Positions 11,876-21,706 of a stretch of 40,010 nt of DNA are shown in pieces. Source of the stretch: Bacillota bacterium (GTDB lineage Bacteria; Bacillota; Sulfobacillia; UBA995; UBA9673); NCBI GenBank assembly GCA_003599345.1, contig QZJP01000083.1:1-40010 (forward strand), written 5' to 3'. The position numbers were made by a program, and so were the translations under genes. A model generated the notes under the pieces. The model was not told the DNA's origin. It made no database searches and saw nothing but the letters and a program-made list of their open reading frames with translations. Within the stretch, counting starts at the first letter, position 1. Each line of letters starts with the position of its first letter.

Positions 11876-13465
11876 GTGTTCCTGGCGCATCTTCGCAGGC
11901 CCGGCCCGCGCGGAAGACGCCGGCCGGTCCTCATCCTCGTCGCGGCCGGCGTGGTGGCCGCCGGCATAGCCGCCGCGGTCGTCTTCTCGGACTTCACGGA
12001 GACAGGTCTGTCCGGCCTGGACTTCACCTGGCCCTGGAGCCGCAAGCCGGAAGCTCTCGATCCGAAGGCCCCCATCGACCCGGCCAGGCAGTACCACCTG
12101 TCGGTCTGGGACTACGAACTGCCTTTCCGGTCACCCGGAGGAGCCCCGTTCAGCGACGCGGCCCGCCGGGCCATCGAGCGGTTCGAGCGCCGATACCCCA
12201 ACGTCAAGGTCGACCTGACCGTCCTGGATCCGGCGGACGGCCAGGCCAAGCTGGCTGAGGCGCTGCAGGCCGGATACCCGCCCGACGTCTACTGCAGCCC
12301 GTTCGGCCCCGGAGCCGTGGGTTCTGACTACCAGGTCCCGGTGGGGCTCTACCTCGACTACGACATCTGGGCAGGCTACGATCCCGTTGCCTGGCAGACG
12401 GTCAAGGTCGAGGGGACGGTCTGGTCCTACCCCCGCTGGCTCATGCTGTGGCCGTGGCTGGGAAACCGCGAGCTGCTGGCGGCGGCCGGCGTGGACACGG
12501 CCCGGGTCGCGGCCGAGGGCTGGACGAGGGATGAGTTCGCCGCCGCGATTGTCGCCCTCGCGGGTACGGGACGGCAGGCCCGACCCTCCGTTGCGGCGAC
12601 ATCGCCGGCCGTAGTCTTGAGGGACCTTCTCCTGCCGGGGCACCTGGCGGGCGAGACCCCCCAGCCGGCGGACCTCTACTGGCTCGGCGCCGAACCGGGA
12701 GCCGTAGCCCTGTGGCTGTCGGAGCTCAGAGACGCCGGAGCGCTTGCCGAGGACGGCAGGGGCACCAATCCGGGGGTCATCGATTCCTTCGTCCACGGGC
12801 GGACGTCTATCCTGGTGGCCCCGTCGCCGTGGGCGACGATGTTCATCCTGGAACCGGTCAGGCGCCCGCCGGCGTGGGAGTTCTCGCTTCCTCCCCGCGA
12901 CCGGCCGGCCATGGTCCTCCTTCCTCCCCCGCACGCCGCGGACCAGCCGTCGGCGGTGTGGGTGTCCGCGGCCACCGTCTCGGTCTTCCGGCAGGCCCGC
13001 TACAAGGGTGACGACCACACCCGCCTGGCCGCCGAACTGGCGCGCGAGCTGAGTGTCGGGACTCGCCCGTGGCTCCGCGACCAGCCCCTCTGCATACCCG
13101 CGGCTTACTCCGAGCAGGTCTCCTGGCGGCTGAGGGTGGGACGCTACGGGCAGGCCGGGGAGTTCGCCACCGGCTCCCTCCACCGGCTCGCCGAACTACC
13201 CAAGGACCGCCTCAGCCTGGCCCTGTCCGCTCTCACGTACGGGCCCCGTCCGCCAATCCCGAGCGACCAGCCTGAACCGGGCGACGCCGGGACGGGATTG
13301 GAGGTCCGCGGGAAGGAGCCGGCGGGGCCGCGTCTCACGTGGGGGTATCTTGGGCCCTTCCTGGCTGAGACCGTCGCGCCTGCCGCGGCCGACTTCTGGG
13401 CGGGCAGGACGGGGCCGGGGGACCTGGTGAGCGAGCTGACCGAAGGAATCCTAACTGGTGACTAG
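11876..13465 (+). CDS. Extracellular solute-binding protein-like (family 1), membrane anchored
   Basis: N-terminal TM, RAIERFERRYPNVKVDLTVLDPADGQAKLAEALQAGYPPDVYCSPFG, typical of substrate-binding proteins; GTG start. Confidence 0.72.
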   Translation: MFLAHLRRPGPRGRRRPVLILVAAGVVAAGIAAAVVFSDFTETGLSGLDFTWPWSRKPEALDPKAPIDPARQYHLSVWDYELPFRSPGGAPFSDAARRAIERFERRYPNVKVDLTVLDPADGQAKLAEALQAGYPPDVYCSPFGPGAVGSDYQVPVGLYLDYDIWAGYDPVAWQTVKVEGTVWSYPRWLMLWPWLGNRELLAAAGVDTARVAAEGWTRDEFAAAIVALAGTGRQARPSVAATSPAVVLRDLLLPGHLAGETPQPADLYWLGAEPGAVALWLSELRDAGALAEDGRGTNPGVIDSFVHGRTSILVAPSPWATMFILEPVRRPPAWEFSLPPRDRPAMVLLPPPHAADQPSAVWVSAATVSVFRQARYKGDDHTRLAAELARELSVGTRPWLRDQPLCIPAAYSEQVSWRLRVGRYGQAGEFATGSLHRLAELPKDRLSLALSALTYGPRPPIPSDQPEPGDAGTGLEVRGKEPAGPRLTWGYLGPFLAETVAPAAADFWAGRTGPGDLVSELTEGILTGD

Positions 13466-14843
13466 CAAGCGGCAACCAGACCCGGACCGTGGTGCCGTGC
13501 CCGGGCCGGCTCTCCAGGGCGATTCTCCCGCCGTGAGCTTCCACGATTCGGCGGCACACCGCTAGTCCGAGGCCGGTGCCGGATTGCTTCGTAGTGAAGA
13601 ACGGCTCGAAGACGCGGTTCCGGTTCTCGCTGCTGATGCCGACACCGGTGTCTCGGACCTCCAGCAAGACCTCGCCTCCCTCGCGCCGGGCCTGCAGGGC
13701 GAGCTCGCCCCCGCGCGGCATAGCCTCGATGGCGTTGCGGCATAGGTTGAGGAGGACTTGTTTGAGGCGGGTGGGATCGGCCGTCACCTGCAAGGCCGGG
13801 TCGCACCCGGCGTAGGAGACACCCACCGGCTCGCGGCCCACGCACATGCTCCTCGCGAGGACCGCCGCCTCGGAGAGGAGGCCGTCCACGCTCATGTCGG
13901 TAGTGGGTTGGAGCCTCGGAGCCCTGCTGAACAGGGAGTAGTCCTCGAGAAGGCTTATGGCCCTGTCGAGCTCGCGGAGAGCCAGCCCGGCGTACTCCGG
14001 GACCTTGTTCCTCTGGACGAGAGTGAGCTGGAGAAAGCCCCTGACGGCCGTGAGAGGATTCTTGACCTCGTGGGCCAGGCCGGCCGCGGCCTCGAGGTGA
14101 GCGGAACGTTCCTGCCTCAGGCTGAGGCTGAGGTCGATGGCCTTGGCCGAGAACAGGGCCTGACCAAGAAGCGCCTCGGTGGCAGGTTGGAGCCTGGGCG
14201 GGAGAAGTACGGCTAGGCAACCCACCGGGACCGCGCTGCCCCCCAGCGGGACTCCGATGCCGCACAGGGTCGGAGACCTGTGTCTTCCGGGGGCCCGGCC
14301 GGGTTCCACCACGGCGACGGCCCCCTCGCTCAGGGCGAGACCGGCCGGGGTCAGCCCCGCGGCCTGGAGCGACAGGATTAGACCGGGCCTCGGCACGCAG
14401 GTCTCGGACCCGTAGCCCGCGGGGTCGGATGCGTCCGTCGCGACAACGTCCAGGACGACGCTCGAACTCTCTAAGACAGCAACCCACCCGGCCAGGCCGA
14501 GAGTGTTTCCGGCCCGCGCCAAGGCCTCGACATAGTCCCGGCAGGCGTTGACCAGCCAGTCGTTGTCCAGCCGGAAAGAAGATAGGTTCGACGCGTCCAC
14601 CGCCAGCGTGCCCCGGAGGGCCCTGCTCCGTGGAGTGAGAGACCCACCCCCGGGCCATTGGCCGGACCCGCTGACGACACGGAAACCGAGGCTCTGGGCC
14701 ACCGGCCTGATGGCGTCAAGTAAGACCCTCTTCGGGGCACCGCCCGGTGCCTTGTGTAGTTCCAGCCGAGCCACCTCGTCCCTCACGCTTCGGCGGTAGG
14801 AACTGCTCCCCGATGGCTCAAGGGCGCGGTGCAAGGGGGTCAC
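13335..14843 (-). CDS. Soluble sensor histidine kinase with sporulation-kinase-like H-box
   Basis: H-box AAGLAHEVKNPLTAVRGFLQLT, N-box LLNLCRNAIEAM, DTGVGISSENRNRVFEPFFTTKQSGTGLGLAVCRRIVEAHGG; no TM segments seen. Confidence 0.9.
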   Translation of the reverse strand: MTPLHRALEPSGSSSYRRSVRDEVARLELHKAPGGAPKRVLLDAIRPVAQSLGFRVVSGSGQWPGGGSLTPRSRALRGTLAVDASNLSSFRLDNDWLVNACRDYVEALARAGNTLGLAGWVAVLESSSVVLDVVATDASDPAGYGSETCVPRPGLILSLQAAGLTPAGLALSEGAVAVVEPGRAPGRHRSPTLCGIGVPLGGSAVPVGCLAVLLPPRLQPATEALLGQALFSAKAIDLSLSLRQERSAHLEAAAGLAHEVKNPLTAVRGFLQLTLVQRNKVPEYAGLALRELDRAISLLEDYSLFSRAPRLQPTTDMSVDGLLSEAAVLARSMCVGREPVGVSYAGCDPALQVTADPTRLKQVLLNLCRNAIEAMPRGGELALQARREGGEVLLEVRDTGVGISSENRNRVFEPFFTTKQSGTGLGLAVCRRIVEAHGGRIALESRPGHGTTVRVWLPLASHQLGFLRSARSPGPPAPSCPPRSRPRQARRSQPGRAQDTPT

Positions 14844-14845
14844 GC

Positions 14846-16036
14846 CTATTCGTGGTAGCGTGTAAACCCCATGAACCGCTGCATCACGACGATGAGCCTA
14901 TCAAGATGCTCGCTCATCTCCCTGACGCGGGTGTCCTGGAAACCGAGTCCGCTGGCTACCGCTTCCTCTAGGACTTGCCGTTGCCGGTCGATTTCTTCGG
15001 CCAGGAAATGGCTGTCCATGACTATGGCCGTTGCATCGCCGGGCAACTGGTACACCGGGTCCCTCCCTTCCCTGTCCCTCGCCGCGGCGAGGTATGTTTG
15101 AAGGTCCAGAAGGTCACAGGCGGCCGCCAGAAGCGTTCCGGGGTCCGCCGTGTCGTCGGGGCAGACGGTGATGGCCATCGCCGCGATTTCGGGTCTCACA
15201 CCCCTGGTGTTGCCCGGCGGCCCAACGAGTCCCCAAAGAGACAAAGCTCTCGACATGTGCGGAGTGAGCATTCTCACCGCTTTGGCCCTCCCGGTTCGAA
15301 GGAGGACAAGGGCGATCTGGCTCGACTCAGGCCCGAAGCAGCTGAAACCCCGGCCGGTGTTCGCTCCTTTGGACGTGACGATGGGCCGCCCTCGCGAGGG
15401 GAGAAACCCGCGGCTGCCGGTACCGGCCAGGCGGGCCATGACCACCGTGACCGGTTCCTCGAGGCAAGTCCGTTCAAGGGCCGAGGACAAGTATCTCCAG
15501 AGATAGGGGTTCATGGCCTCGAGGCTCGAAGTCCGAAATGGCTGGGGATGCGACCTCATGTCCTCGTGCGGGACGGCGCGGGTGGACCGGGCGACGGTTA
15601 TGGAGATGGCGGTTCCGTAGGACAGAGCGCGGGCAAGGTCCACTTGCGCCCGGGTGAGGCTTGAGCCCTTGATCGGCTGGCCCGACACGACCCCGTGGAG
15701 ATGGCGGCTATCGTAGAGAGGTAGCGCGAAGCCTCCCGGCCCAGCCTCGAGATCGGATTCGAGAGCCCCGCGCTCAAGGGATATCGGGTGGGGTTCCGGT
15801 GAGACCTCGCTCCCGGCCCTCACCGCCCTGGCCGTCTCTATGAGATGGACCCGCTCGGAATCGTAGAGGAAGACGACGCAGGTCTCAAGGGGCAGCAGGT
15901 GGACTAGTCGCTGCGCGAGGTGGTCGGCTATCTCGCCGACCCCCGTGCCCCCCAACACGGGGGCCTTCCGCCGTTCGCCGCTGTCCGCTCCCCATTCCGG
16001 TTTGGGCCGGCTCCTGGCACTGTGATATCCGGTCAC
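14846..16036 (-). CDS. GAF-like sensory protein with C-terminal Spo0E-like motif
   Basis: N-terminal GAF-like region (VGEIADHLAQRLVHLLPLETCVVFLYDSERVHLIETARA); C-terminus EEIDRQRQVLEEAVASGLGFQDTRVREMSEHLDRLIVVMQRF resembles the Spo0E family helix-turn-helix with S-x-x-LDRLI. Confidence 0.65.
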   Translation of the reverse strand: MTGYHSARSRPKPEWGADSGERRKAPVLGGTGVGEIADHLAQRLVHLLPLETCVVFLYDSERVHLIETARAVRAGSEVSPEPHPISLERGALESDLEAGPGGFALPLYDSRHLHGVVSGQPIKGSSLTRAQVDLARALSYGTAISITVARSTRAVPHEDMRSHPQPFRTSSLEAMNPYLWRYLSSALERTCLEEPVTVVMARLAGTGSRGFLPSRGRPIVTSKGANTGRGFSCFGPESSQIALVLLRTGRAKAVRMLTPHMSRALSLWGLVGPPGNTRGVRPEIAAMAITVCPDDTADPGTLLAAACDLLDLQTYLAAARDREGRDPVYQLPGDATAIVMDSHFLAEEIDRQRQVLEEAVASGLGFQDTRVREMSEHLDRLIVVMQRFMGFTRYHE

Positions 16037-16081: not shown

Positions 16082-17473
16082 CTATGAGCCCACGACAAAG
16101 CCGGAACCCTCCTCGATAGTGAAGGGGAGGGCGCGGACACTCGCGCTCAGGCCGCGGCTCTTCAGGACGCGGAGTACGCGACGCGAGCCATTGTCGGGAC
16201 TTAGTAGCTCCAGATGCAGGGCGAAGTCGGCCAGCCGCTCACCTGAAACCTTGCGGGGAGCTACCGCGCCGTATGGGCCGAGGGTTGTGGTGGTCATCAC
16301 CGTGGTCACGCCGCGTCCTTGGAGAAGTTGGGAGATTGTGTAGAGGAATGCCTGGTAGTCGTCTTCCGGGATCGCCTGGGTGCTGAGATCGCTTACGGCG
16401 TCGAGGACCACCCGGCGCGCCCCGACACTATCCACCGCCTCCAGGAGGAGGTGGCCGAAGCGGTCGACCTCGACGTCGAGCGGCGGAGTGTGAAACATGA
16501 CAAGCAGCCGGTTCGCCTCGAGAGTCTCTGGGTCCCAACCGAAGTTGGAGCCGACCTGTTTGAGGCGCAGCGGGCTTTCCTGGAAGGAGGCGAAGACACC
16601 GGGCTCCCCCGCGGCGGCCCCCTGTAGGAGGAAGCTCAAGGCGAAAACTGTCTTTCCGCTGCCCACGGGACCGGACACGAGGGTCGTCGTGCCGCGGAGG
16701 ACACCCCCGCTAAGGTGTTCGTCAAGGCCCGCGATACCTGTCGCACAACACCCGTCGGTGGCTCCGACGGGCGCGGGCGTGATCGAACCCAGGCGAGGGT
16801 AGACGACCGCCCCGGCGCCGTCAATCACGAAGAGATGTGAGCCGGGCAGGAACGCCGAACCGCGCAGCTTGAGAATCTGCAGTGATCGCCTGCCGGACCG
16901 TCCGCTGGGCTCGTAGTCGATGTTGACGATGCCGTCGGCCACGGCGCTCGCGCGCGAGGTCAGTAGCTTATCGATCGGGCTTTCGTCAAGAAGGAATGTC
17001 ACGCAATCGAGCGCGCTCAAGGTGCCCGAAAGCTCGTACAGGAACACCGCCATCTCCCGGTCGCTCGAGGACAGGCCCTCAATGGCTCGGAAGCTGTCGA
17101 TCACCACGAACCCCGGAAGGTACTTGGACACCTCTTCTCTTATCACCGCGAGTGCCGCTTCCACCCCCCCGGTCGCCAGCGCACGGCCGAGATCGCGGTA
17201 GTGGATGACGCGGCCCGGGTAGTCGCGTCGGAAGAAGCCGAACGATTGGACATGGACGATGATCTTCTCGTAGGGCTCGGCCACGGTCGAGAAGTACAGC
17301 GCGGGACGGTCCGGAGCCGCGGCGCTGTAGACCACTTGCTGCGCCAGGACCGTCTTACCCCCGCCCGGCACACCTGACACCAGGTTGATGCTGGCCGCGG
17401 GAAGCCCGCCTCCCAGGATCTTGTCAAGACCTGGGATTCCCGTAGCCACACGACCGAAGGGCATCCGTTGCAC
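16082..17473 (-). CDS. KaiC-like RecA-superfamily ATPase, two ATPase domains
   Basis: Two Walker A motifs (GVPGGGKTVLAQQ and GPVGSGKTVFALS), each preceded by TGIPGLDKILGGGLP / TGIAGLDEHLSGGV KaiC-family signatures. Confidence 0.9.
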   Translation of the reverse strand: MQRMPFGRVATGIPGLDKILGGGLPAASINLVSGVPGGGKTVLAQQVVYSAAAPDRPALYFSTVAEPYEKIIVHVQSFGFFRRDYPGRVIHYRDLGRALATGGVEAALAVIREEVSKYLPGFVVIDSFRAIEGLSSSDREMAVFLYELSGTLSALDCVTFLLDESPIDKLLTSRASAVADGIVNIDYEPSGRSGRRSLQILKLRGSAFLPGSHLFVIDGAGAVVYPRLGSITPAPVGATDGCCATGIAGLDEHLSGGVLRGTTTLVSGPVGSGKTVFALSFLLQGAAAGEPGVFASFQESPLRLKQVGSNFGWDPETLEANRLLVMFHTPPLDVEVDRFGHLLLEAVDSVGARRVVLDAVSDLSTQAIPEDDYQAFLYTISQLLQGRGVTTVMTTTTLGPYGAVAPRKVSGERLADFALHLELLSPDNGSRRVLRVLKSRGLSASVRALPFTIEEGSGFVVGS

Positions 17474-17504: not shown

Positions 17505-17897
17505 CTATCCCCGTTCGATCAACCCGGCCACCAAGCCCGCCAAGGCGTGCCGTTGAGCCGGCTTCCGGAGGAACACGTCGGCTCCCGATTCGGCTGCTTC
17601 GTCCGCGGCGTCCAGCACGCTGAAGAGAACCACGGGCACGGACGAGATGCCGGGCCTCGACTTTATCTGCCGGCAGAGTTCCAGGCCGTCGGTCCCGGGC
17701 AGCAGGATCTCCAGGACGATGGCGGAAGGCCGGCGCGAGGCCATAGTTCTGAGGAGGGCGTCAGGCCGAAGGAACTCCAGGTGGAAGGACCTCAGCATCA
17801 CCCGCTGCATCTCGGCCATGAACGGGTTGGGTTCGACTACGTAGACCAGCTGGCCGCTGGCCGCGCCCGACGATTCGTGGGAAACCGCCCTGGGCAT
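17505..17897 (-). CDS. Atypical response-regulator receiver domain (stand-alone)
   Basis: Receiver fold VYVVEPNPFMAEMQ...AIVLEILLPGTDGLELCRQIKSRPGISSVPVVLFSVLD...GADVFLRKPAQ; Glu in place of the usual phospho-acceptor Asp. Confidence 0.8.
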   Translation of the reverse strand: MPRAVSHESSGAASGQLVYVVEPNPFMAEMQRVMLRSFHLEFLRPDALLRTMASRRPSAIVLEILLPGTDGLELCRQIKSRPGISSVPVVLFSVLDAADEAAESGADVFLRKPAQRHALAGLVAGLIERG

Positions 17898-17989: not shown

Positions 17990-19252
17990 TCAGGCCTTTC
18001 CCGCAAGTATCTCAAGAAACGCGTCGACCCTTGTCGCGGTGGGCCCGGCCGAGTAAGCGCGGGAATCCGCCATATCGGCCTCGATGACCAGTGTGGGCAG
18101 CCCCAACTCGTCTCTGACGGCGCGCGCCAGCTCGTACTGGCCGAGGGAGTAGGTCTTGCAGCTCCGGCAGGAATGGAAGACAACCCCGTCCGCGCGTTGT
18201 GACCTCACCATGCGGAAGAGACGCTCCTTGCGTATCCCAAGACCGATGTTCAGGAGGATCAGGGAGTACTGCCTGGCCATGGCCTGGAGGGGATCGTGGG
18301 CGTCCGATGGGTCGAAATCGTAGATGCCCCAGGCATCGGTGTAGGTTTCGCCGACAAAGGCCGCGCCCCGCGCATGGAGGTATCGGACGAGGTCGAAATC
18401 GTACCAGATGGCGATGTTGTCCCAGATCAGACGGTACTTCTCCAGCGGCACCGCGCCGTAGCCCTGCTTCACGCGCTCCGAGAGTTCCTCCGTCACTTTG
18501 CGGTAGTAGTCGACGCAGGTCTTGGTGCCCCTCAGAGTGACGATAGGGAACATGTTCGTGAACATGTCCAGGGCCGAAGCCGGGGTCGGCGAGGCTTGGC
18601 GAAGGGCCTGGATGCCGTTCCAGAGCGAGACGGTCTGTCGCGTCAGCTCTAGGACCTCCGAGAGCTTCGACTCGAAGGCTTCCTTCGACGGGACACGCCG
18701 CCTAGCGGCCTTGGACGCGAAAACCACCAGGTCCTCGAGTTGTCCCTTGACGTAGGCGACCTGGTCGGGGTTCAGGCCGTCGGCGGCGTAGGGCGTGTCG
18801 AGGATGAAGAGCGGGCAGCCGAAGTGCCTGGCCGCAACCTCCCACCACTTCACGACCACGTCACAGATGTTCTTGGCCGCGACCAGCAGATCGGGAGGGG
18901 GTAGGGGTCTGCCCCCCAGCTCCCCCTGCCCGAGGAGGAAGGTGCCGATGTTGGTGCGAGCGTAGGCGCACAGGTCCAGGCTGTAACCAGCCTGCTCCGC
19001 CGCCTCACAGTAGGGTAGAGCGGCCTTCCGGCTGGCAACGAGGGCCCCGTAGTTCTCGGGGTAGACCGGCAGGATGCCGAGGGCCAGCAGGATCTCGACC
19101 GGGGCACCGCTGGTCACCCAGGCCACGGGCTTCCGGCCCAGGGGGCTCTTGGCCCGGAAGGCCGACATGTAGTGCTTGAGGATGAGGCCCTTGAGTTCAC
19201 GATCTACGGTCAGCCTACGGTCCTGGGCGATCTCACGCACAGGTTCGCTCAC
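17990..19252 (-). CDS. 2-hydroxyacyl-CoA dehydratase / benzoyl-CoA reductase family subunit (HgdB/BcrB-like)
   Basis: WVTSGAPVEILLALGILPVYPENYGAL, CxxCK (SCRSCKTYSLGQ), LPTLVIEADMADSR...TRVDAFLEIL. Confidence 0.85.
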   Translation of the reverse strand: MSEPVREIAQDRRLTVDRELKGLILKHYMSAFRAKSPLGRKPVAWVTSGAPVEILLALGILPVYPENYGALVASRKAALPYCEAAEQAGYSLDLCAYARTNIGTFLLGQGELGGRPLPPPDLLVAAKNICDVVVKWWEVAARHFGCPLFILDTPYAADGLNPDQVAYVKGQLEDLVVFASKAARRRVPSKEAFESKLSEVLELTRQTVSLWNGIQALRQASPTPASALDMFTNMFPIVTLRGTKTCVDYYRKVTEELSERVKQGYGAVPLEKYRLIWDNIAIWYDFDLVRYLHARGAAFVGETYTDAWGIYDFDPSDAHDPLQAMARQYSLILLNIGLGIRKERLFRMVRSQRADGVVFHSCRSCKTYSLGQYELARAVRDELGLPTLVIEADMADSRAYSAGPTATRVDAFLEILAGKA

Positions 19253-20532
19253 ATCCGGCCACCTCCCCGACCGGCCCGCGATGCGGCGGGGCCTCGCGCG
19301 CCGGCGGCCGCCCCCCGCGGATGACCCGGCCCGCGAGACGTACGCGCCGTCTGGCGCAGGGTCTCGATGAAGGCTTCGAGTCTCGTGCGGGCCTGACCGG
19401 TCGAGACCGCGCCGAGTTCCACCTCGATGACGAGCGACGGCACCCCTGCCTCCGCGAGAGTGTCGCGTAAGGCCGGGTAGTCGAAGGCGTGAGGATCGCA
19501 GAACTTCTGGAGGAGGAAGATGGCGCCGTCGACGCCGTCAGTGGTGGCCCGGCTCCGGATCTCCTCGAAGCGCCGGTCGGGCGGGTGCTTCGTGGGGCAC
19601 GGGGTGCGGCCGAGGTACATGGCGGCAAGACGGCGGTACGGGTCGGAGTCGTCCCCGGCGCCGAACTCCAGACGTCGACCGCCAAGGCAGAGGTCGTCCG
19701 AGACGATGTCCGCCCCCGATTCCTCGATGAGCCGCAAGGGCTCCTCGGTCTCGAGATAGCCTCCCAGCACCAGGACCCTGGGGCGGCCTCCGCCAGGCCG
19801 GGGCGGCGCCCCGGACGGCGTCCGGGACGGCGACACGGTCGCTCCCATCGCGGCTGTGAGCTCGTCCGCCACGGCCGCCGTCAGCGTCGCGGCCTCCCTG
19901 CGGTCGAGGACCGCGGCTCCGCGCGCCATCGCCATGTAGGTCGACCCGGGAAGGAGGTCCGGCCTCGCGCGGCGCACGCGGGCCAGGCCTTCGAGGTTCT
20001 GCCGGACTGCGCCGATGAGCCCGATCGCCCAGGCCAGGTCGTCGGGAGTCGGCGGGTGGGCGCCGTCGACTCCGCCCAGGGCCTCGGACAGCCGTCGCAT
20101 CTCGGACGCCGCGTAGTCGAGGACACCAGGACCTTCGATTCGTGCGGGGAGATTAAGAAAGTGCACGAGACGCCCCGGCGGGGCGCTGATGCGCCACGAT
20201 TCGAACGCCGCCCGGAGCGAGTCGCAGGTGTAGGCGAAGACGAAACCTTCGAGGCCGTTCCACCGGCCGGACAGCAGCCCGTCGAGGAGGGCCCGGGCGA
20301 AGGAGCACGAGAAGCTCTGCAGACGGCTGTCGGCCGGGCCCGTGGGTCCGGGCCTCGCCCCCAGCCTGACCGGGTGGAGACCCGCAGCCAGGATGATCTC
20401 CTCCGGGACGTAGGAACACACGTAGCCGACGGCCGGGCCTGGAGCGTGAGCGGCCGGGTCGGCACCGGCGGCCAGGAGCCGGTCCATGGCCCCGCTCGCC
20501 GTGCTGTTGGTCATTGCCGGAGCCCCCTCCAC
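19249..20532 (-). CDS. 2-hydroxyacyl-CoA dehydratase family subunit
   Basis: YVCSYVPEEIILAAGLHPVRLGA, QSFSCSFARALLDGLL, QKFCDPHAFDYPALRDTL, VPSLVIEVELGAVSTGQARTRLEAFIETL. Confidence 0.85.
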   Translation of the reverse strand: MEGAPAMTNSTASGAMDRLLAAGADPAAHAPGPAVGYVCSYVPEEIILAAGLHPVRLGARPGPTGPADSRLQSFSCSFARALLDGLLSGRWNGLEGFVFAYTCDSLRAAFESWRISAPPGRLVHFLNLPARIEGPGVLDYAASEMRRLSEALGGVDGAHPPTPDDLAWAIGLIGAVRQNLEGLARVRRARPDLLPGSTYMAMARGAAVLDRREAATLTAAVADELTAAMGATVSPSRTPSGAPPRPGGGRPRVLVLGGYLETEEPLRLIEESGADIVSDDLCLGGRRLEFGAGDDSDPYRRLAAMYLGRTPCPTKHPPDRRFEEIRSRATTDGVDGAIFLLQKFCDPHAFDYPALRDTLAEAGVPSLVIEVELGAVSTGQARTRLEAFIETLRQTARTSRGPGHPRGAAAGARGPAASRAGRGGGRM

Positions 20533-20548
20533 CCGCTAGCGCTGCCTA

Positions 20549-21706
20549 CTAGTTCTTCCTGAACATCTTGTCGAAGAGCCCGGCGGCCTCTCCGGCGGGG
20601 ACTTCCATCGCCCCCTCGGTGCACAACTCGGCGCAGCAGAAACACGCTATGCACTTCGCCGGGTCGACCACGGGGTACGGGTCGAGAGTGATGGCTCCAG
20701 GCGGGCAGTTCTCGGCGCAATCACCGCACATGATGCACAGGCTCTCGTTGACGACCGGGTTGATGTTGCCGAGAGAGACCAGGATTTGAGCCTGTTCGTC
20801 GAGAGAGACCCCAATGGTATTCGGCATGGCGAAGTCCGGGATGGGTTCGATGTCGATGGGGCGGCCCTCGCCGTCGAGGGCCCGGAACTCCCCTGGACGG
20901 TACCTCCCCAGTGGGGCCTGGCCCTGGGCCTCGAGTTCGGCGGCCTTCTGGAACACCCTGAGTTGCATCGGTTCGACACCCATCATCAGCGACAGCACGG
21001 CGTCGACCGCCAGGCCGTCGGTCCCGGCGACCAGCTTCCCGAGCGGTCTTACCCGGCCGTGGCTCGGCCCATTCCCGTCCATGATGTAGAGAGCGTCGAC
21101 GATGTGCAGATCCGGCACCCGCAGGGAGTAGATGTCGAGGAGAACGTGGGCGAACCGCCCGCGGGAGAAGGCCGCCAGGTGCAGCTTGGCCTTGTTCGTG
21201 CCGGCGACATAACCGAAGCAGTTCTTGACCGCTCCCGTGAGGGTTGTGAGCATGTGCGTCTTGAAGACGGGGACGTTGATGACGTGGCCGGCCTCCAAGA
21301 TGTACTTGGAGATGACGAGCTTCCCGGCGTACGGGTTGGATACGGCCTTCTCCACGACCTCGTCGGACAGGTTGCGGAAGCAGCCCTCCGCGGCGTCGTA
21401 GATGCCGCAGGTCCTTGCGGTATGAAGCGAGTTCCTATCCACTCCGCCCGGGTTGTCGCCCACCGCGGGTTGCCCTCCCGCCCGCCGGACGGCCCTCACG
21501 ATGGCCGTCACCAGCGACGGTGTGGTCGTCACATGCAGCTCGGGCGGCGCCGGCGCCAGGATGTTCGGCTTTATGAGCGCGCTTCGCCCCTTGAGCCGCT
21601 CCCCGGCGCCGGTAAGGGCGAAGATGGTGTCGACCGCCTGTTCGAGGGCTGGCAGCCCGGGGTCGGGGCCGCCCAGGTCCAGTATGTAGACGTCGCTCGT
21701 GTCCAC
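20549..21706 (-). CDS. DUF362 domain protein with C-terminal 2x[4Fe-4S] ferredoxin domain
   Basis: VFKTHMLTTLTGAVKNCFGYVAGTNKAKLH; CIMCGDCAENCPPGAI and CIACFCCAELCTEGAM. Confidence 0.88.
   Translation of the reverse strand: MDTSDVYILDLGGPDPGLPALEQAVDTIFALTGAGERLKGRSALIKPNILAPAPPELHVTTTPSLVTAIVRAVRRAGGQPAVGDNPGGVDRNSLHTARTCGIYDAAEGCFRNLSDEVVEKAVSNPYAGKLVISKYILEAGHVINVPVFKTHMLTTLTGAVKNCFGYVAGTNKAKLHLAAFSRGRFAHVLLDIYSLRVPDLHIVDALYIMDGNGPSHGRVRPLGKLVAGTDGLAVDAVLSLMMGVEPMQLRVFQKAAELEAQGQAPLGRYRPGEFRALDGEGRPIDIEPIPDFAMPNTIGVSLDEQAQILVSLGNINPVVNESLCIMCGDCAENCPPGAITLDPYPVVDPAKCIACFCCAELCTEGAMEVPAGEAAGLFDKMFRKN

Follow-up and report, generated by a model that had tools for sequence, protein, structure and literature searches.

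The window, i.e. the whole stretch of 40,010 nucleotides that was analysed, carries a block of genes running in one direction, in the order DUF362/ferredoxin gene, HGD-D, HGD-D, receiver, KaiC-like ATPase, a fusion gene of unusual domain content and a histidine kinase. The features of the block are the following:

17990..21706, minus strand: pair of 2-hydroxyacyl-CoA dehydratase-type (HGD-D) genes plus a DUF362/ferredoxin gene, forming the upstream part of the block
17505..17897, minus strand: single-domain receiver, with E63 for the acceptor aspartate and VEPN for the acidic pair
16082..17473, minus strand: KaiC-like ATPase with two domains, lying between receiver and fusion, with no match in L013-L015
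16043..16050, minus strand: GGAAGGAG, ribosome-binding site of the fusion gene, 6 nt upstream of the GTG, as read from the sequence
14846..16036, minus strand: GAF - pseudo-GGDEF - Spo0E fusion gene, 396 aa, GTG start
15599..15937, minus strand: GAF-like domain, fusion residues 34-146 (GAF_3 below its cut-off; Foldseek rows mostly GAF)
15032..15544, minus strand: predicted degenerate GGDEF domain, fusion residues 165-335 (AF2 and Foldseek; GGDEF motif absent)
14876..15004, minus strand: Spo0E-like domain PF09388, fusion residues 345-387 (Pfam, 24.7 bits, cut-off 23)
14900..14914, minus strand: SxxxD signature S-E-H-L-D, fusion residues 375-379, from the sequence
13335..14843, minus strand: partner histidine kinase with HisKA and HATPase_c; its start is uncertain (homology sets in after ~20 codons)

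Three other genera of the source organism's family (genomes G001, G002 and G003) have orthologues of the fusion, with 39-42% identity over the full length, and all three genomes share the order DUF362, HGD-D, HGD-D, fusion, kinase. A histidine kinase gene lies directly downstream of the fusion gene in all four genomes; fusion and kinase thus form a fixed pair. The receiver gene was found at the block in two of the four (the source and G003, at L015:4244-4660), and the KaiC-like ATPase gene at this place in none of the three relatives. HGD-D and DUF362 metabolic genes precede the signalling genes in all four genera. A scan for promoters and terminators gave nothing above chance, and no RNA families were found near the fusion gene.

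The C-terminus of the 396-aa protein is a true Spo0E-like domain. The initial annotation had proposed such a motif from an alignment by eye and placed it at 14846-14990, the same site as the PF09388 match to within an offset of a few residues; Pfam, profile-profile comparison, shuffled sequences, the motif and the orthologues all bear this out. The SpoOE-like family PF09388 is matched over profile positions 1-42 of 42, with an E value of 2.3e-5. The domain is fairly divergent, its score being 1.7 bits above the curated Pfam cut-off of 23 bits. All four family orthologues match the family, three of them above the cut-off and that of G002 at 19.4 bits as a whole protein. With a profile built from stand-alone Spo0E domains alone, the four family fusions scored 24.4-33.0 bits, to be compared with at most 11.9 bits for 10,000 shuffled copies, and in profile-profile comparison with Spo0E the tail reached a probability of 96.7%, the middle region, taken as control, 1.0%. 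A six-frame search of the source genome recovered the fused domain independently. The tail contains S375-E-H-L-D379, i.e. the SxxxD signature defined for Spo0E, the aspartate of which is required for Spo0E action (PMC11115286); S375 and D379 are invariant in the four orthologues. More generally, the Spo0E block is their best-conserved part, with a mean identity of 71%, versus 45% for the GAF and 39% for the pseudo-GGDEF region. In the AlphaFold model of the full-length fusion, which is of low confidence (pLDDT 46), the tail is also the best-modelled part: helices 342-361 and 369-395, joined by a loop, are predicted with a pLDDT of about 60-79, and this agrees with the two-helix hairpin that the initial annotation had anticipated. 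Among solved structures, the 59-aa tail alone found no match and the four-protein alignment nothing useful. With 396 aa and two further domains, the fusion is outside the stand-alone class of ~40-100 aa, so that membership of the Spo0E family applies to its C-terminal domain and not to the protein as a whole.

It had also been guessed that the protein begins with a GAF-like region and that its middle is possibly a degenerate GGDEF, and structure prediction is in line with both guesses. Residues 34-146 score 22.5 bits with GAF_3, below the Pfam cut-off of 27, and the 50 rows listed by Foldseek for the low-confidence full-length model are mostly GAF (E 0.01-0.2, probability mostly 0.9-1.0); in the G002 orthologue the GAF part is shortened. 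Residues 165-335 matched no Pfam family. Because of the low confidence of the full-length fold, the middle domain was refolded separately, together with the three orthologues (AF2); one of five models was good, and this best one, with a pLDDT of 77 and a pTM of 0.78, was used. Its top Foldseek matches were PleD and a T. maritima GGDEF, with a probability of 1.00, and the GGDEF matches as a whole had probabilities mostly of 0.9-1.0 with E values of only about 0.001-0.02 (1.2e-3 for the best). A plain HMM of GGDEF domains missed the middle domain and profile-profile comparison with GGDEF gave 29% only, so that the assignment comes from the fold search. When a profile of the middle domain was searched against 154 genomes of the class, only four weak matches lay outside the family; three of them, in three other genomes, align in register with the latter half of a GGDEF or GGDEF-like domain. 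At the position of the GGDEF motif the four orthologues have ESSQI, GSNRV, ASNRV and APGRV; since GG(D/E)EF is lost in all of them, cyclase activity is not expected. The order GAF, pseudo-GGDEF without GGDEF motif and Spo0E is thus upheld for the 396-aa protein, as far as predicted structures can tell.

Spo0E is joined to this sensor region in four of the four genera of the family. A search with two conserved peptides among 84,980 species genomes found the fusion nowhere beyond the source family, and the middle-domain profile detected no fusion orthologue beyond it among the 154 class genomes. Each family genome also contains a second, stand-alone Spo0E gene (on contig 30 in the source genome). 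In all four genomes this gene adjoins murB-like and/or NADH dehydrogenase genes (L016, L017, L018, L019). Spo0E was also surveyed in 399 genomes belonging to the phylum; among the best matches listed, almost all frames are shorter than 170 aa. The longer frames carrying Spo0E matches included fusions to different partners: with HD-GYP in G403 (L065), where Spo0E is N-terminal, and in G134 (L088), where it is C-terminal; with MEDS, placed behind Spo0E, in G142 (L085) and G148 (L087), two genomes from different families; and with YflT, a stress-protein domain placed second, in G148 (L086). Long Spo0E frames of the same class as the source, in G030, G049, G061, G078, G085 and G044, suggested fusions by their length but were discarded, their upstream residues resembling, by eye, stop-free non-coding DNA and containing no recognisable feature. 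The joining of Spo0E to another domain is thus seldom seen but has turned up repeatedly, and a GAF/pseudo-GGDEF partner occurs, within the genomes searched, in the source family only. The view, taken initially, that Spo0E is normally stand-alone holds in so far as fusions are rare, but they are not confined to this locus: since MEDS, HD-GYP and YflT-like partners occur elsewhere, the fusion as such is not unique, and a sensor-fused Spo0E is not categorically new. The class nevertheless appears little described. In the open-access literature, where most subscription papers are absent, we found no description of a Spo0E fusion with GAF, MEDS or HD-GYP. A survey of Spo0E orthologues kept proteins of 40-100 aa only (PMC11115286), and sensor-coupled fusions would therefore be missed by it.

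The best solved relative of the partner kinase is sporulation kinase B (3d36, E 1.8e-40, PDB); NCBIfam, in contrast, ranked AtoS and ZraS above KinD for the kinase core, none of them near its cut-off. When aligned with Spo0A, both copies of the block receiver (source and G003) have the acceptor aspartate replaced by glutamate (E63) and EP for the acidic pair, and are thus not expected to carry an aspartyl phosphate that Spo0E could remove. There are eleven receiver matches in the source genome and the fusion's contig has one, this glutamate-bearing receiver; no intact receiver gene lies on the contig, and the target should therefore be sought elsewhere. Spo0A with an intact receiver is present in all three relatives. 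In the source assembly, which is 82% complete, Spo0A, SpoIVB and SpoIVA were not found; spoIIIAA and two SpoVAC/AEB-type genes are present. In G001 a single contig carries spoIIIAA (14.1 kb), spoIVB (35.6 kb), spo0A (36.4 kb), a response regulator (42.6 kb) and SpoVA (63.2 kb). The source genome has spoIIIAA at the start of contig C70 (13.8 kb long) and, on contig C22, a response regulator 88 bases from the start, then SpoVA at 20 kb. Because the gene order of G001 matches the ends of these two contigs, the spo0A-spoIVB region of the source most likely falls in an assembly gap between them. Loss of sporulation, as the explanation for the missing spo0A, spoIVA and spoIVB, is less likely, given the spoIIIAA and SpoVA-type genes and the location of the spo0A region at contig ends.

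With modest confidence, we favour the view that the fusion is a soluble, signal-controlled Spo0A~P phosphatase of the Spo0E type, which together with the kinase would constitute a switch setting the sporulation decision. A cytoplasmic signal would be detected by the putative N-terminal GAF domain, and the catalytically dead GGDEF could be a further sensing, dimerising or relay module. This sensor part would set the position or the access of the C-terminal two-helix Spo0E hairpin; the latter would dock on a response regulator, in all likelihood Spo0A, by way of its receiver, from which the aspartate of SxxxD would promote loss of phosphate. The adjacent kinase, with its KinB-like core, would feed phosphate into the same pathway, and the fusion would oppose or tune it, acting against or together with it. 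The kinase/phosphatase pair would in this way set the Spo0A~P level and hence the decision to sporulate. As the sensor is joined to the Spo0E module, a signal could act directly on the 'do not sporulate' brake. It is known that Spo0E inactivates Spo0A and that the aspartate of SxxxD is needed for this; Spo0E showed no cross-complementation between B. subtilis and C. difficile (PMC11115286). That the fusion is a Spo0A phosphatase is suggested by its Spo0E domain and signature, by the hairpin model and by the higher conservation of the Spo0E block than of the two other regions; by the constancy of both the fusion and the downstream kinase in the four genera, and the likeness of the kinase core to sporulation kinase B among solved structures; by the glutamate in the only receiver match on the contig; and by the intact Spo0A of the three relatives, the spoIIIAA and SpoVA-type genes of the source and the probable position of its spo0A-spoIVB region in an assembly gap. 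What counts against this view is the absence of Spo0A, SpoIVB and SpoIVA from the assembly, the second, stand-alone Spo0E in every family genome, the number of receiver matches in the genome, the ranking of AtoS and ZraS above KinD and the divergence of the Spo0E domain.

The main alternative, which we consider rather unlikely, is that the domain is a true phosphatase and acts on a different response regulator, which the partner kinase serves as well, the stand-alone Spo0E handling Spo0A. Every family genome has two Spo0E genes, one of them stand-alone; if the latter encodes the Spo0A phosphatase, another regulator is left for the fusion, and the source genome, with its eleven receiver matches, has other receivers than that of the block. 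The conserved link of the fusion is to HGD-D/DUF362 metabolic genes, not to sporulation genes, and Spo0E-like proteins are known in non-sporulating bacteria too (PMC11115286). However, such a regulator would not be encoded by an intact receiver gene on the fusion's contig; the block receiver has Glu for Asp and is seen in only two of the four genomes; and the kinase core resembles sporulation kinase B. Another possibility, which we regard as unlikely, is that Spo0E serves as a general output module for sensor proteins, here in a one-component 'sensor-phosphatase': Spo0A dephosphorylation would be switched by a small molecule bound to the GAF and the inactivated GGDEF, for instance cyclic di-GMP or a guanine nucleotide. 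Second-messenger sensing would then feed straight into the sporulation decision, and the separate Spo0E/HD-GYP fusions of other lineages fit this. Less probable still is that the hairpin has no phosphatase activity and only docks on or sequesters a partner, be it Spo0A, the kinase or the pseudo-receiver. Spo0E of C. difficile binds RstA and Spo0A and was modelled to block the phosphorylation site (PMC11115286), and the hairpin might bind the pseudo-receiver encoded nearby; but this pseudo-receiver was not found beside two of the four fusion genes, and the serine and aspartate of the signature are invariant. Finally, that the C-terminus is an ordinary helical tail with a chance resemblance to Spo0E would fit the score barely above the PF09388 cut-off and the failure of the 59-aa tail alone to match solved structures, but it is very improbable, being already largely refuted by the profile-profile and shuffle results, with which the four orthologues and the motif concur.

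The fusion, which we continue to regard as a putative Spo0A~P phosphatase under signal control, shares with the Spo0E-like aspartyl-phosphate phosphatases (PF09388; B. subtilis Spo0E, YisI, YnzD type) the same 42-position domain, SxxxD and a predicted two-helix hairpin. However, those that have been studied are small stand-alone proteins, whereas in the fusion it forms the tail of a sensor protein of 396 aa. To our knowledge, the control of when Spo0E phosphatases act is poorly understood, because the proteins studied are tiny and lack any sensor part; a built-in sensor and an adjoining kinase gene provide a direct handle on the input to Spo0E and make it testable. The MEDS, HD-GYP and YflT fusions are alike in that Spo0E is joined in one frame to a sensory or signalling domain, and they suggest that sensor-coupled Spo0E proteins make up a class, but their partners are unrelated, without GAF or GGDEF, and Spo0E is mostly N-terminal in them. 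With GAF-GGDEF diguanylate cyclases (an example is the frame in L082, its GAF being recognised by eye) the fusion has in common the predicted GGDEF fold behind an N-terminal sensory region; it differs by having lost the GGDEF motif and gained a Spo0E tail. The partner kinase has the same HExxNPLTAxRGFxQL phospho-acceptor helix and ATPase core as the sporulation kinases KinB and KinD, but its N-terminal region is its own and its gene follows a Spo0E fusion. A further comparison is provided by the Rap phosphatases, which are under signal control and reduce the flow of phosphate to Spo0A. In contrast to the Spo0E fusion, to which their fold is unrelated, they are TPR proteins and act on Spo0F under peptide control.
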